Positions 55,801 to 63,470 of a DNA stretch of 63,539 nt are shown here, piece by piece. Location of the stretch: NCBI RefSeq assembly GCF_013376095.1, contig NZ_JAAMFN010000024.1, forward strand, positions 1 to 63,539, written 5' to 3'. The stretch's first letter is position 1. Every line of letters starts with the position of its first letter. This DNA is from Arthrobacter sp. SDTb3-6. Its GTDB lineage: Bacteria; Actinomycetota; Actinomycetes; Actinomycetales; Micrococcaceae. The notes beneath the pieces were generated by a model. That model did not search any database. It was not told the origin of the DNA and saw only the letters and a list, made by a program, of their open reading frames with translations. Made by a program: the position numbers and the translations under genes.

Positions 55801-57531
55801 CTACGGCACTGCCGCCCGGGCGTCCGCCAGCAGTTCCTTGGCGTGGGCCTGCGCCGTGGCCGAATCCTCCTGTCCTGCCAGCATGCGGGCCAATTCACGC
55901 ACCCGCTCCGAATCGTCCAAAAGCCGCACATTGCTGGTGGTGATGCCGCCCCCGGGGGTGCTGCCGGCGGAGCTCTTGGTGACCAGGATGTGCTGGTCGG
56001 CGAACGCCGCCACCTGGGGCAGGTGGGTGACCACCAGGACCTGCACGTGCCGGGCCAGCATGGCCAGCCGGCGCCCGATTTCCACGGCCGCCTTGCCACC
56101 CACGCCGGAGTCCACCTCGTCAAAGACAAACGTGGGGACGGGGTCGACGGCGGCCAGCACCACCTCCAGCGCCAGCATCACCCGGGACAGTTCACCGCCG
56201 GAGGCGCCCTTCCCCAGCGGCCGTGGCGACGCGCCGGCGTGGGGCTGGAGCAGGAAGGTGATGTCGTCGGCGCCGTGGATGCCGCGTTCCGCCGGTGCCA
56301 TGTCGATGACCAGCCTGGCGTCGGGCATGGCCAGTGCCTTGAGTTCGGCGCTGACCCTCTTGGAGAGGGCATCGGCGGCGGCGCGGCGCAGCTTGGTGAC
56401 CTTGGCGGCCAGCGTTTCCAGTTCGGTGAGGGATGCGGCCACCCCGGCCTCCAGCGCCTCTATCCTGCCGGAGTCGTCCGTGAGCTCATCAAGGCGTGCC
56501 CGGGCGCGGTCCGCCCACTCGATGACCTCGTTGATGGTGGGCGCGTATTTGCGCACCAGCACGGCCAGTTCCCCGCGCCGGTCCTCCACCTCGGCCAGCC
56601 GGCCGGGCCCCTCGGAGTCCAGCGAGGTGGCGTAGCCGGCCAGGTCGCGGGCGATGTCCGCCAGCAGGTAGCCCACCTCGGATACGCGCTTGCCCAGTTC
56701 GGCGAGTTCGTCGTCGGACCCGGCCACGGTTTCCAGCAGCCGCCGGGCCGTGTCCACGAGGGTCACGGCGTCCGCGCCGTCGCCGTAGTCCTCGGCCAGC
56801 AGCGCCTCGTGGGCGCCCAGCGAGGCCCGGCGCAGCTCCTCCACGTTGCCCAGCTTCACCGCTTCCGCCTTCAAGAGCTCGTCCTCGGCCTCCTGGGGCG
56901 CCACGGCGTCGATCTCGGCCAGGGCCGTGGCCAGTGATTCCGCCTCGCGCAGCCGCTCCCGGCTGGAATTGCGCAACAGCTCCAGCTCGGCCTGCGATGC
57001 CTGCCAGCGCCGGAAAACCTCCCCATAGGCGGCCATGGCTGCCGGAAACTGCCTTTGGGCTTCCGCGGCAAACTTGTCCAGCGCCTCGCGCTGGGGCCCG
57101 GCGCCCTTGAGCCGGATCTGGTCCGACTGCCCGTGCACGGCCACCAGGGTCTCCCCCAGCTCCGCGAGCACGCCGATGGGGGCGCTGCGCCCGCCCACGT
57201 GCGCCCTGCTGCGCCCGTCGGCGCCCACTGTGCGGGCCAGGATCAGCCCGGCACCGCCGTCGAACTCGTCGATGTCCGCCCCGGCCTCCTGGGCGCGGGC
57301 CAGCGCAGCGTGGCCGGCGGGCAGCGTGAGCGTGGCTTCGGCGGAGGCGCTTTTGGCCCCGTTGCGCACGGCCCCGGCGTCCGCCCTGTTGCCCAGCAGA
57401 AGCCCGACGGCGGTCACCACCATGGTCTTTCCGGCGCCGGTTTCGCCGCTGACCACGCTCAGGCCCGGGCCCAGCGGCAGGGTGGACTCCGAAATCACCC
57501 CGAGGTCGCGGATCCGTATTTCCTCAATCAT
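55801..57531 (-). CDS. recN: DNA repair protein RecN
   Basis: 576 aa SMC-like ATPase for double-strand break repair. Walker A is SGETGAGKTMVV near residue 30, a coiled-coil middle with many Glu/Leu/Arg follows, and the C-terminal half has ASGGELSRVMLALEVVLA (signature) and FVFDEVDSGVGG (Walker B). ATG 57531 gives MIEEIRIRDLGVI, the family N-terminus. It overlaps the nadK stop by 8 bp. Confidence 0.96.
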   Translation of the reverse strand: MIEEIRIRDLGVISESTLPLGPGLSVVSGETGAGKTMVVTAVGLLLGNRADAGAVRNGAKSASAEATLTLPAGHAALARAQEAGADIDEFDGGAGLILARTVGADGRSRAHVGGRSAPIGVLAELGETLVAVHGQSDQIRLKGAGPQREALDKFAAEAQRQFPAAMAAYGEVFRRWQASQAELELLRNSSRERLREAESLATALAEIDAVAPQEAEDELLKAEAVKLGNVEELRRASLGAHEALLAEDYGDGADAVTLVDTARRLLETVAGSDDELAELGKRVSEVGYLLADIARDLAGYATSLDSEGPGRLAEVEDRRGELAVLVRKYAPTINEVIEWADRARARLDELTDDSGRIEALEAGVAASLTELETLAAKVTKLRRAAADALSKRVSAELKALAMPDARLVIDMAPAERGIHGADDITFLLQPHAGASPRPLGKGASGGELSRVMLALEVVLAAVDPVPTFVFDEVDSGVGGKAAVEIGRRLAMLARHVQVLVVTHLPQVAAFADQHILVTKSSAGSTPGGGITTSNVRLLDDSERVRELARMLAGQEDSATAQAHAKELLADARAAVP

Positions 57532-58609
57532 GGTGCGGCCTGGCCCCCTCAAGGTTGTGTGGCATGGTGTGGTCGGTTTCGGCAGCCCCGGTGACGGTCA
57601 GGTCCGGCACCAGCGGCAGCGGGCCGGTGTGGGGCCCTTCCGGCTGCGACTTGGCCATGGGCGGGTGGATGACCGGCAGCTGGGTGGTGGGTGGCGCCGC
57701 TTCCTCCCCGGACGGTCCGCGCCAGCCTTGGACGGGCAGCTCAAATTTGCGCACCAGGCGTTCGGAGAACGGCGACTGCTGGGTGCGGGCCAGCCGCACG
57801 GGCTTGTCGGAGCGTGTCACCTCGATGCGGGAGCCGGGCAGCAGGTCCACGGTGCGGCGGCCGTCGCACCAGATCACCCCGTAGGCACCGTTGCGGGTGA
57901 GGACCTCCACGGCCAGCGTGGACGTGGGGGCCACCACGAGGGGCTTGGCAAAGAGCGCGTGGGCGCTGATGGGCACCATGAGCAGCGCCTCCACCTCGGG
58001 CCACACCACGGGTCCGCCGGCGGAAAAGGCGTAGGCGGTGGAACCGGTGGGGGTGGCCATGACCACGCCGTCGCAGCCAAACGAACTTAACGGGCGGCCG
58101 TCGACTTCGGTGACGACTTCGATCATGCGTTCCCGGTTGCCTTTTTCCAGGGCCACCTCGTTCAGCGCCCAGGTGTGGGTGACCACCCGGCCGTTGACGC
58201 GGACCTTCACGTCCAGGGTCATGCGCTCCTCCACGGAGTATTCGCGCTGCACCACCCAGTCGACGGTTTGGAGGAGGTCGGCCCGTTCGCTTTCGGCCAG
58301 AAAGCCCACATGGCCCAGGTTCACGCCGAGCAGCGGGAGGTCGTGGTCGCGCACCAGTTCGGCGGCGCGCAGGATGGTGCCGTCGCCGCCGAGCACCATG
58401 ACCAGTTCAATGTCGGCCAGGGTGACGTCGCGGTCGAGGATTTCCATGCTGACATCGGAGACGCCCAGGTAGCCGGTCATGTCGGCCAGCTCGTCGGCGT
58501 ACATGACCGGCACAACGTCGTTGGCGTGCAGCTGCACGCAGGCCTCCAGGGCGGCAATCATCGATTCCTCGCGCCCGGTGTGGGCCAGGATCAAGACGCG
58601 GCGTGTCAT
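57524..58609 (-). CDS. nadK: NAD kinase
   Basis: 361 aa. It phosphorylates NAD to NADP. The GGDGTILRAA motif and the LNEVALEKG/ATPTGSTAYAFSAGG core are intact. The C-terminal 65 aa are Pro/Gly/His-rich and disordered, making it longer than the usual 300 aa. ATG 58609 starts MTRRVLILAHTGRE; frames further up have no family match. Confidence 0.95.
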   Translation of the reverse strand: MTRRVLILAHTGREESMIAALEACVQLHANDVVPVMYADELADMTGYLGVSDVSMEILDRDVTLADIELVMVLGGDGTILRAAELVRDHDLPLLGVNLGHVGFLAESERADLLQTVDWVVQREYSVEERMTLDVKVRVNGRVVTHTWALNEVALEKGNRERMIEVVTEVDGRPLSSFGCDGVVMATPTGSTAYAFSAGGPVVWPEVEALLMVPISAHALFAKPLVVAPTSTLAVEVLTRNGAYGVIWCDGRRTVDLLPGSRIEVTRSDKPVRLARTQQSPFSERLVRKFELPVQGWRGPSGEEAAPPTTQLPVIHPPMAKSQPEGPHTGPLPLVPDLTVTGAAETDHTMPHNLEGARPHHD

Positions 58610-58635
58610 GTGCTGGGCTTTCCTCCGGGTAGGCG

Positions 58636-59439
58636 TCAGGGCCACAGCTGTGCCAGCAGATCCTCCACGGCACTGCCCTGTTCTTCGATCTTAGGTGCCG
58701 GGACTGACAGTTCACGGCTTGCCCACAGAAAATACTCCACATTTCCGTCCTGGCCCGGGAGCGTGCTGGTCCCGAGCCCGCGCAGGGTGAGCCCGTTGTC
58801 CAGGGCGGCCCGGGCCACCAGTCCCACGGCGCGGCGGCGTTCGTTTTCGGAGCTGACGACGCCGGTCCGGGCCAGCCGCTCGCGGCCCACCTCGAACTGC
58901 GGCTTGACCATGAGCAGCAGGTCCCCGCCCGGGCGTGTCGCCAGGGCCAGGGGCGCCATGACCAGGGTCAGCGAAATGAAGGAGAGGTCGCAGACGGTCA
59001 GCTCGGCGGCGCCGCCGATTTCGGCCACGTCAAGGTAGCGGATGTTCATGCCCTCGTAGACGTCCACGCGCGGGTCGTCGCGGAGTGCGGGCACCAGTTG
59101 CCCGTGCCCCACATCGACGGCGGCCACCCTGGCCGCACCGTTGCGCAGCAGTACGTCGGTGAAGCCGCCGGTGGAGGCCCCTGCATCGAAGCAGCGCTTG
59201 CCGGCCACGGTGACCTGCGGGAAGCAGGCCAGCGCCCCGGCCAGCTTGTGGCCGGCACGGGAGACGTACTCGGGTCCGCCGCCCTGGAGTTCAATGCCTG
59301 TTTCAGCGGTGACGGCCAGGGCGGCCTTGGCTGCGGCCGTGCCGTCGACGGTTACCCGCCCGGACTTGATGAGGGCGGCGGCCACGGTGCGCGAACGGGC
59401 CAGCCTGCGGTTCACCAGTTCCTGGTCGAGCCGGGTCAC
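58636..59439 (-). CDS. tlyA: TlyA-family rRNA (cytidine-2'-O)-methyltransferase
   Basis: 267 aa. N-terminal S4 RNA-binding domain (TRLDQELVNRRLARSRTVAAALIKSGRVTVDG) and an FtsJ-like SAM domain with CFDAGASTGGFTDVLL. TlyA methylates 16S and/or 23S rRNA and its loss gives capreomycin resistance in mycobacteria. GTG 59439 overlaps the small upstream gene by 4 bp. Order matches Rv1694-Rv1695. Confidence 0.95.
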   Translation of the reverse strand: MTRLDQELVNRRLARSRTVAAALIKSGRVTVDGTAAAKAALAVTAETGIELQGGGPEYVSRAGHKLAGALACFPQVTVAGKRCFDAGASTGGFTDVLLRNGAARVAAVDVGHGQLVPALRDDPRVDVYEGMNIRYLDVAEIGGAAELTVCDLSFISLTLVMAPLALATRPGGDLLLMVKPQFEVGRERLARTGVVSSENERRRAVGLVARAALDNGLTLRGLGTSTLPGQDGNVEYFLWASRELSVPAPKIEEQGSAVEDLLAQLWP

Positions 59440-59630
59440 GGGGCTCCGCCGGGAGCCGCGGCGGCAATGTCCGCGGCCGGGTCGGTGTCCAGCTCGCGCT
59501 GCAGCGACTCCATGACCGAGGTGTACACCCCGTTATGCTCCGCGGTGGGCAGCGCGGCTGCCTGGCCGGCGAGGGCCACGATGGCGTCCACGGCGGGGTC
59601 ACCGCTTCCTTCGGAGTCCACGGGGCCCAC
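59436..59630 (-). CDS. Small conserved protein between HAD phosphatase and tlyA
   Basis: 64 aa from GTG 59630, which shares a base with the HAD-gene stop. It begins MGPVDSEGSGDPAVDAIVALAG and has one amphipathic helix and a Pro/Ala tail. It has the position and size of M. tuberculosis Rv1693, a conserved hypothetical of the same gene order. A longer frame to 59699 overlaps the HAD gene and is unlikely. Function is unknown. Confidence 0.75.
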   Translation of the reverse strand: MGPVDSEGSGDPAVDAIVALAGQAAALPTAEHNGVYTSVMESLQRELDTDPAADIAAAAPGGAP

Positions 59631-60631
59631 TATTCCGGCTTTTTCCACACGAGTTGCGGATCCGTCACGGTGTCCGATTCCGGCACGGCCGCCCACCACA
59701 CCGCGCAGGCGGCACGCCAGGCGTTGAGGTCGTCCCGGTCGCCGGCCACGGTCACCACGCCGTCCGCGACGGCCGCGGCAGCGGCACCACAGGTGACGCG
59801 TCCGTCGTCGCGCGCCACCTCAGGGTAGGGCTGGTAAAAGTCCTTGAGCGTGTCAATGATGAAGCGCGGGCGTTCCGCGGACTTGGCCTTGAGCGCGGAT
59901 TCCACGGAATCCACGCCGGTGAGGACCAAGGCCGTGGCCATGCCGGCGTTGTTGCCGCCGAGAATGTCGGTGTCCAGGCGGTCCCCGACCACCAGCGGCC
60001 GGTCCGCCCCGAGGCGCCTGGCGGCCGTGTGGAACAACGGCGCCTGCGGCTTGCCGGCCACCAGGGGGTCGCGGTCGACGGCGGCACGCACGGCCGCCAC
60101 AAGTGTCCCGTTCCCTGGGGCGATCCCCTGCTCCCGAGGGATGGTCAGGTCCGTGTTGGTGGCAATCCATGCCGCCCCGCCGTGGATGGCAAAGGCGGCC
60201 TCGGCGAGGTCCTCCCAGCCCAGCGAAGGTTCAAAACCCTGGATGACGACGTCGGGCGTGGCCTTGGCGCTGTCCACGCTCGTCATGCCGACCAGCTCAA
60301 TCTCGCGGACCAGGGCGGCACTGCCGACGACCAGGACCTTGCTGCCGGCGGGGAACCTTTCGGCCAGCAGCGCGGCCCCGGCCTGGGCCGAGCTGACCAC
60401 CTGGCCCTCTTCCGCGGGGGCGCCGAGTTCACGCAGGTGTGCGGCAACGTGGGCCGGGGTGCGGGAGGCATTGTTGGTCACGTACCCCAGCTTGACGTTG
60501 GCACCGGCCAGGCCCGTCAAGGCCTCAATGGCGCCGGGGATGGCGTTCGGCCCGGCATACACCACGCCGTCCAGGTCGGCGAGGACGGCGTCGAAGCCGG
60601 CCAGCAGGGTCTTTGTTGTCTCCGCGGACAA
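59630..60631 (-). CDS. HAD-IIA family sugar phosphatase-like protein
   Basis: 333 aa. The HAD motif I is DLDGVVY at residues 19-25 with both Asp, then YVTNNAS (motif II), and VVGDRLDTDILGGNNAG (motif IV), typical of NagD/4-nitrophenylphosphatase-like HAD-IIA enzymes. Substrates are small phosphoesters. TTG 60631 lies 4 bp after the TPR gene stop with AGGAGG in that region; long upstream frames are not coding. The 30-aa C-terminus is an extension. Confidence 0.9.
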   Translation of the reverse strand: MSAETTKTLLAGFDAVLADLDGVVYAGPNAIPGAIEALTGLAGANVKLGYVTNNASRTPAHVAAHLRELGAPAEEGQVVSSAQAGAALLAERFPAGSKVLVVGSAALVREIELVGMTSVDSAKATPDVVIQGFEPSLGWEDLAEAAFAIHGGAAWIATNTDLTIPREQGIAPGNGTLVAAVRAAVDRDPLVAGKPQAPLFHTAARRLGADRPLVVGDRLDTDILGGNNAGMATALVLTGVDSVESALKAKSAERPRFIIDTLKDFYQPYPEVARDDGRVTCGAAAAAVADGVVTVAGDRDDLNAWRAACAVWWAAVPESDTVTDPQLVWKKPE

Positions 60632-60635
60632 GGGG

Positions 60636-62870
60636 CTAGTCCTCCTGCCCGTCAAACGGGCCTGAATCCGAGGCGGCGTGGGCGGCCGCCCCGGTGTCGC
60701 CGGCCAGGACGTCTGCATCGTCGTCCGCGCTGTCCTGGTCGGATTCGGGGTCATCGGATTCAAAGTAGTCGGATTCGGCGTCGTCCACTTCGGTCTCGTC
60801 GTGTTCGTTGGCCGGGGCATCCTGGCCGGCGTGCTCGGGCTGGACAGCCGGTTCCATGACGTCGGAGACGCGGACGCGGGGCGCGTCCAGGGGGATATCG
60901 TCGTCGTCGCCAAGGTCCACGATGATCGAGTCGGTGCTGTCGTCCTGGCCCAGGGCCTCGTCAGCCACCACGGCCTGGCGTTCCCAGGTCTTCGCCTCGT
61001 CCTTGCGGCCGGCGGCACGGAGCACCATGGCGTAGGCGCGGAACAGGCGGGGGCTGAAGGAGAAGGCCCGGTTGATGTCCAGCTGCGGGATTTCCAGCAC
61101 GGACAGGGCTGCGTCGAGCTCGCCCAGGTCGCCGCGTGCACCGGACTCCACGATGGCCAGTTCCACCTTGCCGGCGGTGTCCAGGGTTTCAGCTTCCTCG
61201 GAATGGATCAGTTCGAGGGCCTTCTCCGGGCGTCCCAGCCCGCGTTCGCAGTCGGCCATGAGTGGCAGGTGGACATTGGAGCCGCTGATGCGCCGGTACG
61301 TGCGCAGTTCGCGCAGGGCTTCTGCATAGTTGCCCGCAGCGTAGGCGGTCATGGCGACTGCCTCACGGACGCAGGCCAGCCGGCCGCCGCGACGGCTGGC
61401 AGCCAGGGCGTGCTCAAAGGCCAGCTCCGGTTCAAAGTCGATCAGCCGGCCGGCCATCACCAGGTGCTTGGACACCCATTCGTTGTTGCGGGAGTCCAGG
61501 ATGCGCAGTTGCGCACGGGTGACCTTGTCCAGTTCCTCGCCGGTGACGTCATGGTCGATTTCCGGTGAGCGTGAGCGGTCGGCACGGTTCGAGCTGCGCA
61601 GGTCACCTGCGTTGCGCTGCGGCGCCGTGCGGGGGCCGCGGTCTTCCCGGTCGCCGTGGGGCCGGCTGTTGTAGGGCCGGTCCCCGCCCGAACGGGCAGG
61701 ACGGTCCGCATGGCCGCCACGGTTGTCACGGTCACCGTAGGGGCGGTCGCCACCAGAGCGCGCCGGACGATCACCATAAGGACGCTCGCCACCAGAACGG
61801 GCCGGACGATCACCATAGGGGCGCCCGCCCTGGCCGCCACGGTTGTCACGGTCACCGTAAGGACGGTCGCCACCGGATCGGGCGGGACGATCGCCATAGG
61901 GGCGCCCGCCCTGGCCCCCACGGTTGTCACGGTCACCGTAAGGGCGATCGCCACCGGAGCGCGCCGGACGATCATCATAGGGGCGCCCGCCCTGGCCGCC
62001 ACGGTTGTCACGGTCACCGTAAGGACGGTCGCCACCGGATCGGGCGGGACGATCGCCATAGGGGCGCCCGCCCTGGCCGCCACGGTTGTCACGGTCACCG
62101 TAAGGACGGTCGCCACCAGAGCGCGCCGGACGATCATCATAGGGGCGCCCGCCCTGGCCGCCACGGTTGTCACGGTCACCGTAAGGGCGATCGCCACCGG
62201 AGCGCGCCGGACGATCACCATAAGGACGGTCGCCACCAGAGCGCGCCGGACGATCACCATAAGGACGGTCGCCACCGGAACGGGCCGGACGGTCACCATA
62301 GGGGCGCCCGCCCTGGCCGCCACGGTTGTCACGGTCACCGTAGGGACGATCGCCACCAGAGCGCGCCGGACGATCATCATAGGGGCGCCCGCCCTGGCCG
62401 CCACGGTTGTCACGGTCACCGTAGGGACGATCGCCACCGGAGCGCGCCGGACGGTCACCATAGGGGCGCCCGCCCTGGCCGCCACGGTTGTCACGGTCAC
62501 CGTAGGGACGATCGCCACCGGAACGGGCCGGACGGTCACCATAGGGGCGCCCGCCCTGGCCGCCACGGTTGTCACGGTCACCGTAGGGACGCTCGCCACC
62601 GGAACGGGCCGGACGGTCACCATAGGGGCGCCCGCCCTGGCCGCCACGGTTGTCACGGTCACCGTAGGGGCGCCCGCCCTGGCCGCCACGGTTGTCACGG
62701 TCACCATAGGGGCGCCCGCCCTGGCCGCCACGGTTGTCACGCTCCGCATACGGCTTACGGTCCTTGCGGTCCCCCGCCGGCGGGCGGTCACCATAGGGCC
62801 GTCCGTTGAATCCTCCGCCGTCCCGGCCTTGTGAATTTCCTTCGCGGTTGCCACCGTGTTGCTCAGCCAT
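60636..62870 (-). CDS. TPR protein with about 25 tandem RPYGDR repeats and acidic tail
   Basis: 744 aa with three parts. Residues 1-52 are a Gly/Arg-rich lead-in. Residues 53-389 consist of two alternating repeat types, RPYGDRDNRGGQGG (14 aa, 12 copies) and RPYGDRPARSGGD (13 aa, 13 copies). About 450-650 is an alpha-helical TPR-like domain (AGNYAEALRELRTYRRISG, GRPEKALELIHSEE). The last 80 residues are strongly acidic (SDYFESDDPESDQDSADDD). ATG 62870 has AGGAG 5 bases upstream. The TPR part corresponds by position to M. tuberculosis Rv1691. The repeat domain looks intrinsically disordered; its Arg-Gly and Tyr pattern recalls RNA-binding, condensate-forming RGG proteins. That function is inference. 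It heads the operon that includes tlyA. Confidence 0.85.
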   Translation of the reverse strand: MAEQHGGNREGNSQGRDGGGFNGRPYGDRPPAGDRKDRKPYAERDNRGGQGGRPYGDRDNRGGQGGRPYGDRDNRGGQGGRPYGDRPARSGGERPYGDRDNRGGQGGRPYGDRPARSGGDRPYGDRDNRGGQGGRPYGDRPARSGGDRPYGDRDNRGGQGGRPYDDRPARSGGDRPYGDRDNRGGQGGRPYGDRPARSGGDRPYGDRPARSGGDRPYGDRPARSGGDRPYGDRDNRGGQGGRPYDDRPARSGGDRPYGDRDNRGGQGGRPYGDRPARSGGDRPYGDRDNRGGQGGRPYDDRPARSGGDRPYGDRDNRGGQGGRPYGDRPARSGGDRPYGDRDNRGGQGGRPYGDRPARSGGERPYGDRPARSGGDRPYGDRDNRGGHADRPARSGGDRPYNSRPHGDREDRGPRTAPQRNAGDLRSSNRADRSRSPEIDHDVTGEELDKVTRAQLRILDSRNNEWVSKHLVMAGRLIDFEPELAFEHALAASRRGGRLACVREAVAMTAYAAGNYAEALRELRTYRRISGSNVHLPLMADCERGLGRPEKALELIHSEEAETLDTAGKVELAIVESGARGDLGELDAALSVLEIPQLDINRAFSFSPRLFRAYAMVLRAAGRKDEAKTWERQAVVADEALGQDDSTDSIIVDLGDDDDIPLDAPRVRVSDVMEPAVQPEHAGQDAPANEHDETEVDDAESDYFESDDPESDQDSADDDADVLAGDTGAAAHAASDSGPFDGQED
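61704..62714 (-). repeat. Coding tandem repeats of 39 and 42 bp (about 1 kb)
   Basis: Twenty-five units encode RPYGDRPARSGGD/E (39 bp) or RPYGDRDNRGGQGG (42 bp), mostly alternating as an 81-bp pair. Exceptions are three 39-bp units in a row, two pairs of adjacent like units, and RPYDDR variants in three copies. Because unit lengths are multiples of three, frames stay open on both strands; the long opposite-strand frames here are shadows. The near-identity shows recent amplification and makes assembly error possible. Confidence 0.95.
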
Positions 62871-62975
62871 GCCGACTCCTAAACCTTTGAGCGCACCAAC
62901 TGGCACAGTAACAGCCGCTCTTCACTATTGATCTCATACTGCTAAAATCTCGGGCCCAACAGCCCACACTACAGT

Positions 62976-63470
62976 CTAGTCGAGCCCGGGAGCTGCACCC
63001 ATGAATCTGGCGTATCTGGCCAAGATGAGTGGCCAATCACAGTACTTTTCGTACTGCTGCCGGCCCGGCACCCCGGCCGCCCAACCGTCATGCACGAGCG
63101 TCACCCGGGTGCCGTCGTCGACGGCTTCAAAGGTCACGGCGACCACGGTCGGGGCAAGCGGATTCCCGGCCAGCTGCCAGGCCAGAACCAAGGACGACGG
63201 CGGCGTCCACCCGCGGACTTCCGCCCACAGCTGCTGCCGTCCATCTGGAGCCTCCTCAGACAGCCCGCGGTCATCGAAGCCGGGATGCGATTCCACGCCA
63301 AATCCGCTGTAGCGCTCCATGGGCCACCATAAGTGGATGCCATCCGTAAAACCGTCAAAGGCAAATTCAGGATGCACCGGAACCACGACTGTGGCAGTCC
63401 GGGCTTGGGGCACGTCCCCTGGCATATCGGCAGCCTGCGGTTCATGAGCATGGGAAAAGATACTGTCCAT
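62976..63470 (-). CDS. SRPBCC (AHSA1-like) domain protein
   Basis: 164 aa. After a 25-aa lead (MDSIFSHAHEPQAADMPGDV) the START-like fold begins ATVVVPVHPEFAFDGFTDGIHLWWP and continues with LAWQLAGNP, VTFEAVDDGTRVTLVHDGW and a C-terminal helix. It probably binds a small hydrophobic ligand. No partner regulator is adjacent. ATG 63470 is 69 bp from the window end. Confidence 0.85.
   Translation of the reverse strand: MDSIFSHAHEPQAADMPGDVPQARTATVVVPVHPEFAFDGFTDGIHLWWPMERYSGFGVESHPGFDDRGLSEEAPDGRQQLWAEVRGWTPPSSLVLAWQLAGNPLAPTVVAVTFEAVDDGTRVTLVHDGWAAGVPGRQQYEKYCDWPLILARYARFMGAAPGLD

Follow-up and report, generated by a model that had tools for sequence, protein, structure and literature searches.

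The locus studied here raises the question of what a bacterial protein does in which a long array of near-identical Arg-, Tyr- and Gly-containing units is joined to a TPR domain and an acidic tail. Its gene lies on a contig of 63,539 nucleotides from Arthrobacter sp. SDTb3-6 (NZ_JAAMFN010000024.1; this whole stretch is called the window), and a first-pass annotation had proposed the fusion, placed it in the slot of a conserved mycobacterial TPR gene and suggested a role in condensates or ribosome assembly. The coordinates given there were exact, with the ATG at 62870 and the stop codon at 60638-60636 of the minus strand according to the open reading frame and its translation, and composition, motif counts and predicted fold bear out the fusion of an Arg/Gly repeat region, a TPR and an acidic tail (Table 1). 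Our preferred reading, held tentatively and at a little less than an even chance, is that this conserved protein of the Actinomycetota is a multivalent RNA-linked scaffold or an assembly helper for rRNA.

Table 1. Features of the repeat-TPR gene and its neighbours in the window
Feature	Coordinates	Strand	Basis
Whole CDS, 744 aa	60636..62870	-	ORF and translation; orthologues in 56/58 relatives
N-terminal Arg/Gly/Asp/Tyr-rich region, residues 1-436	61563..62870	-	Composition, structure prediction
[RK]PY..R tandem array, residues 24-381	61728..62801	-	Motif positions, TRF, pN/pS
Linker RNAGDLRSSNRADRSRSP, residues 419-436	61563..61616	-	Alike in same-genus and several family orthologues
TPR body, residues 437-636	60963..61562	-	
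Acidic tail, residues 637-744, with DDAESDYFESDDPESD	60639..60962	-	38 D/E and 2 R/K of 108 residues
Leader including ATG	62868..62932	-	60/65 positions invariant in 12 same-genus sequences
AHSA1-like ORF	62976..63470	-	PF08327, 31.7 bits (cut-off 22.1)
HAD-IIA hydrolase (start codon provisional)	59630..60643	-	TIGR01460 over cut-off; PF13344
TlyA-family rRNA 2'-O-methyltransferase	58636..59439	-	TIGR00478, 189.2 bits (cut-off 185.8)
NAD kinase (start codon provisional)	57524..58645	-	NF002892 over cut-off
RecN	55801..57552	-	TIGR00634 over cut-off

Downstream of the repeat-TPR gene, the HAD-IIA hydrolase, TlyA, NAD kinase and RecN follow on the same strand, and this order is kept in many loci. 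The mycobacterial slot proposed in the first-pass annotation agrees with the Rv1691 operon, given as lprJ-Rv1691-Rv1692-Rv1693-tlyA-ppnK-recN in the available part of the source (PMC3072309), with HAD, tlyA, NAD kinase and recN likewise downstream; judged by sequence and gene order, the window gene is the Rv1691-type gene of the tlyA-nadK-recN run. Rv1691 and its Mycobacterium smegmatis equivalent MSMEG_3754 are described in the available text of PMC7092591 and PMC10433963 only as TPR-repeat protein, and are compared here by that description. The single locus of family f22 with a short arm (L202) differs from the window in having an arm of 66 aa and a tail of 12 residues, against 436 and 108.

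On its other side the gene usually follows an rRNA operon in the same orientation, a position that is new here and that gives new support to the proposed ribosome link. Among 133 non-redundant loci (136 of 166 had enough flanking sequence, minus 3 duplicates), 88 have rRNA genes upstream in the same orientation: the same-strand 5S gene is no more than 400 bp away in 65 loci, 400-2500 bp away in 21 and further off in 2, and the gap between 5S and start codon has a median of 145 bp over the 88 loci. Start codons were called with a Shine-Dalgarno rule, and a few calls are wrong (L211, L210, L168); for L211 the gap is 97 bp by an earlier start call versus 1096 bp by the rule. Cases with 5S within 400 bp occur in 18 of the 27 sampled families, including three outside the class (f32, f45 and f63). 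LSU and 5S rRNA are both found upstream on the same strand in six of seven same-genus loci, the seventh (L082) reaching the contig end, and the same arrangement is seen in 8 of 12 loci that belong to other genera and families. The link has exceptions: 11 of the 133 loci, including both sampled f4 genomes, have at least 2.5 kb of upstream sequence and no 5S; Rfam searches of these 11 loci found no 5S either, and a further 34 of the 133 are undecidable as the sequence ends. For mycobacterial species with a second operon, the available part of PMC10218544 places rrnB downstream of tyrS.

The window itself has 669 bp left upstream of the gene, and according to alignment with relatives the contig stops some 40-140 bp short of where 5S is expected, so the rRNA operon most likely exists in this genome but lies outside the contig. 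In this genus 0.8-1.3 kb separate 5S and gene. The AHSA1-like ORF occupies that gap in the window and in at least one aligned relative (L084), and in the window it separates the gene from the contig end and from the rRNA operon expected there. Contig breaks within 6 kb are found upstream in 63 of 80 loci versus downstream in 5 of 80, which fits the expectation for collapsed or repeated rRNA copies; these named loci are the best-scoring 80 of at least 582 and are therefore biased to close relatives. The wider sample consists of 20 places taken from the 119 listed among 296 genomes with a match. One locus (L116, NZ_JADHDY010000001.1) is titled Sporosarcina beigongshangi and holds a 92% identical orthologue; it was placed in the window's genus (G012), and its name looks wrong.

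Since most of the lineages examined have the gene immediately after an rRNA operon, some of its mRNA could arise by read-through from the rRNA genes, and its dose could be tied to rRNA synthesis. A strict scan found a terminator-like hairpin straight after 5S in 22 of 63 short gaps (0.95 expected from shuffles), further post-5S hairpins are visible by eye in other gaps, and such hairpins would limit read-through. We infer read-through because the shortest gaps leave little room for a separate promoter past the hairpin; a promoter inside the hairpin region is a possible alternative. The post-5S hairpin occurs in many families (for example at L176, L195 and L202), where the remaining gap is too short for an obvious promoter of the gene's own. 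In the window the 65-nt leader ending in ATG is invariant at 60 positions among 12 same-genus sequences, and the bases just upstream of it vary. A GAGC...GCUC hairpin (62889-62920) precedes the Shine-Dalgarno sequence and recurs in Micrococcaceae; it was considered as a regulatory RNA, for which a compensatory change in one of eight pairs is too little to make a claim.

The position just past rRNA operons also speaks for an alternative that we consider possible but unlikely, namely that the protein acts on the transcription side, as a partner of RNA polymerase at or on the rRNA operons (in elongation, termination or polymerase clustering) and not in ribosome assembly, with the Arg arm holding nascent RNA and the TPR holding the polymerase or a factor. 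MSMEG_3754 was indeed recovered in an RNA polymerase pull-down list under standard growth, as far as the available part of that study goes (PMC7092591). However, the same text reports that its DNA association was tested and not detected, its authors say that the protein may be RNA-associated, and the recovery could be indirect through RNA. Presence in the pull-down is moreover not specific, because MSMEG_3754 also stands in the available ClpC1 interactome table (PMC10433963).

The first-pass annotation had counted 25 near-identical RPYGDR units over 337 residues; the repeat exists, but the counts differ. The arm holds 23 exact copies of RPYGDR, 26 of RPY[GD]DR and 28 of [RK]PYxxR, and the 27 matches to [RK]PY[GDA][DE]R reach from residue 24 to residue 381, a span of 358 residues. 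A 14-aa unit (DRDNRGGQGGRPYG) alternates with a 13-aa unit (DRPARSGGDRPYG); TRF reports a period of 81 bp with 12 copies and a score of 1417, and higher-order repeats of 402 and 483 bp are also present. Residues 1-436 comprise 95 Arg, 2 Lys, 62 Asp, 6 Glu, 113 Gly and 28 Tyr, with RGG occurring 13 times, and the linker at their end includes, in part, invariant columns at N420-P436 when N-terminal sequences are compared. The repeat units are under purifying selection, with differences that are mostly synonymous: pN is 0.024 and pS 0.355 between the 13-residue inter-motif segments (n = 13; pN/pS 0.067), and pN is 0.024 and pS 0.166 between the 14-residue segments (n = 12; pN/pS 0.144). When units are picked by the exact motif, a choice that biases the ratio toward silent change, the ratios are 0.027 and 0.210.

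DNA coding for RPYGDR occurs 23 times in a pattern search of the whole genome, always at the window locus (the reversed control pattern has 0 occurrences), and a whole-protein search for other RPYGDR proteins in the same genome matched only the protein itself. The idea that the repeat is shared with the pseudouridine synthase of the window was rejected; the Gly/Arg/Ser N-terminus of that protein has no RPYGDR units. The share of CGT among Arg codons is 0.60 in the arm versus 0.07 in four other genes from the window or its neighbourhood and 0.12 in the translation genes rpsL, rpsG and fusA (the last in part), and TAT is also unusually common in the arm. The arm is thus unlike highly expressed genes too, and expression-driven codon bias is ruled out as the cause of its codons. 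The objection that the repeat is an assembly artefact is not upheld in kind: one-contig relatives (G002, G003 and G016) carry intact arrays in N-termini of 449, 411 and 460 aa. The exact copy number in the window is uncertain, because the genome is a draft of 144 contigs and the 402- and 483-bp higher-order repeats are hard to assemble. For residues 1-431 no secondary structure is predicted, and a full-length model, shallow with its 11 sequences and poor overall (mean pLDDT 39), gives the individual blocks a pLDDT of about 31-38; low arm pLDDT is a weak sign of disorder, because the TPR scored low in this model too.

A search with the TPR body had hits in 56 of 58 relatives, among them all 22 other genomes of the genus. 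Comparison of orthologues had been named as the first check, and it came out positive: in these 22 an Arg-rich N-terminus with varying unit and copy number is joined to a TPR that stays fixed (78-95% identity). The N-termini are 21-25% Arg in 21 of the 22, several of them cut by a contig end or flank limit; the remaining one (G022) has 13% Arg and a run of unknown bases (an assembly gap), then proper repeats. Exact RPYGDR is found in 15 of the 22, with 1 to 15 copies versus 23 in the window. Units differ within the genus (for example RPYGDRPARPAGDRDNRGGYNDRPARTGGD in L026 and DRPYGDRKPAGDRDNRGSYGDRPARPAS in L036) and are quite different outside it (DRPRQDRGERRDFS in L048, GGWDRDRNDRNER in L073 and RRDDRRDDRRDD in L197): tandem expansion is lineage-specific.

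Composition is conserved across the phylum. In a set of 114 usable N-termini, from which open, unfinished, X-containing and duplicate rows and four arms shorter than 20 aa had been removed, Arg and Gly together make up 30% or more in 108, and the arm is net positive in every one of the 114. Array, Arg/Lys and aromatic counts were made on 108 orthologues with arms of at least 60 aa. Arg is used over Lys with a median share of 0.95 in the arm versus 0.815 in the TPR of the same proteins, the arm being higher in 86 of 108 (relatedness ignored); Asp exceeds Glu in 104 of 108, and the median charged fraction is 0.43. Tyr, taken as a hallmark in the first-pass annotation, is not conserved: it exceeds Phe in 46 of 108 arms, Phe exceeds Tyr in 50, aromatic residues total less than 3% in 29, and the Tyr content of the window lies at the 98th percentile. 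It is thus the charge pattern, with Arg and Asp, that is conserved, and not Tyr.

These data bear on a rather unlikely explanation, by which the arm is a tolerated slippage by-product of GC-rich repetitive DNA and only the TPR body matters. Arm length does range from 1 to 687 aa by start calls, with the arm absent or shorter than 20 aa in four loci, the units are exchanged from species to species within a genus, and by TRF 26 of 108 N-termini have no array, against 82 that do. Speaking against a by-product are a pN/pS of 0.067-0.144 between units, a composition held phylum-wide and a preference for Arg over Lys that goes beyond that of the same protein's TPR; so does a period that is a multiple of 3 in every one of the 82 arrays, although the coding frame alone would favour this too.

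The TPR body has an AlphaFold pLDDT of 96, and its nearest solved folds are TPRs; it is predicted to be a TPR superhelix of helical hairpins. The assignment rests on the fold because the seven TPR families listed by Pfam all score below their gathering cut-offs (best E-value 0.0021); no NCBIfam model matched, and a profile search against the sequences of solved (PDB) structures gave nothing significant (best E-value 0.18). The tail, strongly acidic in the window, is net negative in 110 of 114 orthologues. A motif resembling DDAESxYFESDDAESD is kept in the tail within the genus. The protein is quite unlikely to be a chaperone for basic ribosomal proteins or other clients, whose acidic tail binds them and whose Arg arm masks the empty tail, for although arm and tail are of opposite charge and, over 114 loci and with relatedness ignored, correlate in length (Spearman 0.55) and in net charge (-0.44), long tails are found mainly in Micrococcales. 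Elsewhere tails are short or absent (median length 35 residues for the 11 loci of other orders within the class and 16 residues for the 7 loci outside it), and the Arg arm is usually kept there.

Several known systems resemble parts of the protein. Eukaryotic RNA-binding proteins of the RGG/FUS type have Arg- and Tyr-rich low-complexity disordered regions, and the window arm is Arg- and Tyr-rich and of low complexity as well (13 RGG, 28 Tyr and 95 Arg in 436 residues). It differs in its 62 Asp, and the orthologues differ in that Tyr is not conserved and aromatic residues fall below 3% in 29 of 108; the low pLDDT of the arm comes from a poor model, and Pfam found no RRM or zinc finger in the window protein. 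Arg-enriched mixed-charge domains of nuclear-speckle proteins combine Arg with Asp/Glu at high charge density and prefer Arg over Lys. Going by its charged fraction and Arg share, the arm is a mixed-charge domain of this Arg-rich kind, and RRDDRRDD-type runs occur in f21 loci; as a mixed-charge Arg/Asp polymer it appears less like FUS/RGG regions and more like these domains. It differs from them in being bacterial, Gly-rich and fused to a TPR. The RGG-type tails of bacterial DEAD-box helicases offer a further comparison: three such helicases of the same genome (L094-L096) have Arg/Gly-rich tails, one with RGGYRGDRDRG, which differ in being short, C-terminal, attached to an enzyme and free of regular tandem units. 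TTC0263 (2pl2), MamA and SRP72 are TPR proteins with a non-significant sequence link, and all are without such an arm. SCO1774, a candidate from the literature, proved to be the wrong gene. Known kinds, then, are the TPR protein, the Arg-rich disordered region and the mixed-charge domain; the open-access full text searched held no description of the arm, of this combination, of its repeated re-invention across a phylum or of the rRNA position.

According to the preferred scaffold reading, the protein would have three working parts: a long disordered Arg/Asp/Gly arm, the TPR body and, in Micrococcales above all, the acidic tail. The arm, which in many lineages includes aromatic residues, would make many weak contacts with rRNA or pre-ribosomal particles, for which its chemistry (Arg and not Lys, high charge, flexibility) appears suited. 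The TPR may recruit a partner, which could be a ribosomal protein, RNA polymerase or an enzyme of modification; the tail may compete with RNA for the arm and keep it soluble. In favour of this reading we count the composition of arms and tails, the preference for Arg over Lys and for Asp over Glu in the arm, the purifying selection on the units, the rRNA linkage with its upstream contig breaks and short 5S-to-start gaps, the presence of TlyA, an rRNA methyltransferase, in the same gene run, and the recovery of MSMEG_3754 in the RNA polymerase pull-down list. Against it we count the loci without 5S, the 0.8-1.3 kb between 5S and gene in the window's genus, the AHSA1-like ORF in the gap of the window, the terminator-like hairpins, the appearance of MSMEG_3754 in the available ClpC1 table, the four loci with an absent or very short arm together with the short arm of L202, and the arms poor in aromatic residues. 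A bolder and rather doubtful version would make the protein a nucleolus-like factor of bacteria. Such a TPR-anchored scaffold, rich in Arg and built from repeats, would bring together pre-rRNA, the enzymes that modify it and ribosomal proteins in a condensate next to the rRNA operons of Actinomycetota; its dose would be set by its gene position behind an rRNA operon, and its arm would have been re-invented lineage by lineage through tandem expansion, with selection acting on charge and Arg content and not on sequence.

The protein probably works with RNA or in ribosome assembly. In soil actinobacteria and their relatives a fast-changing but chemically conserved arm sits on a conserved TPR body, and these arms would form a natural series of disordered repeats from bacteria whose composition persists although their sequence keeps changing. 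As a phylum-wide gene that usually follows an rRNA operon, it would be a candidate for a missing factor of actinobacterial ribosome biogenesis, and it offers a directly testable case for the question of whether bacteria organise rRNA maturation with Arg-rich scaffolds.
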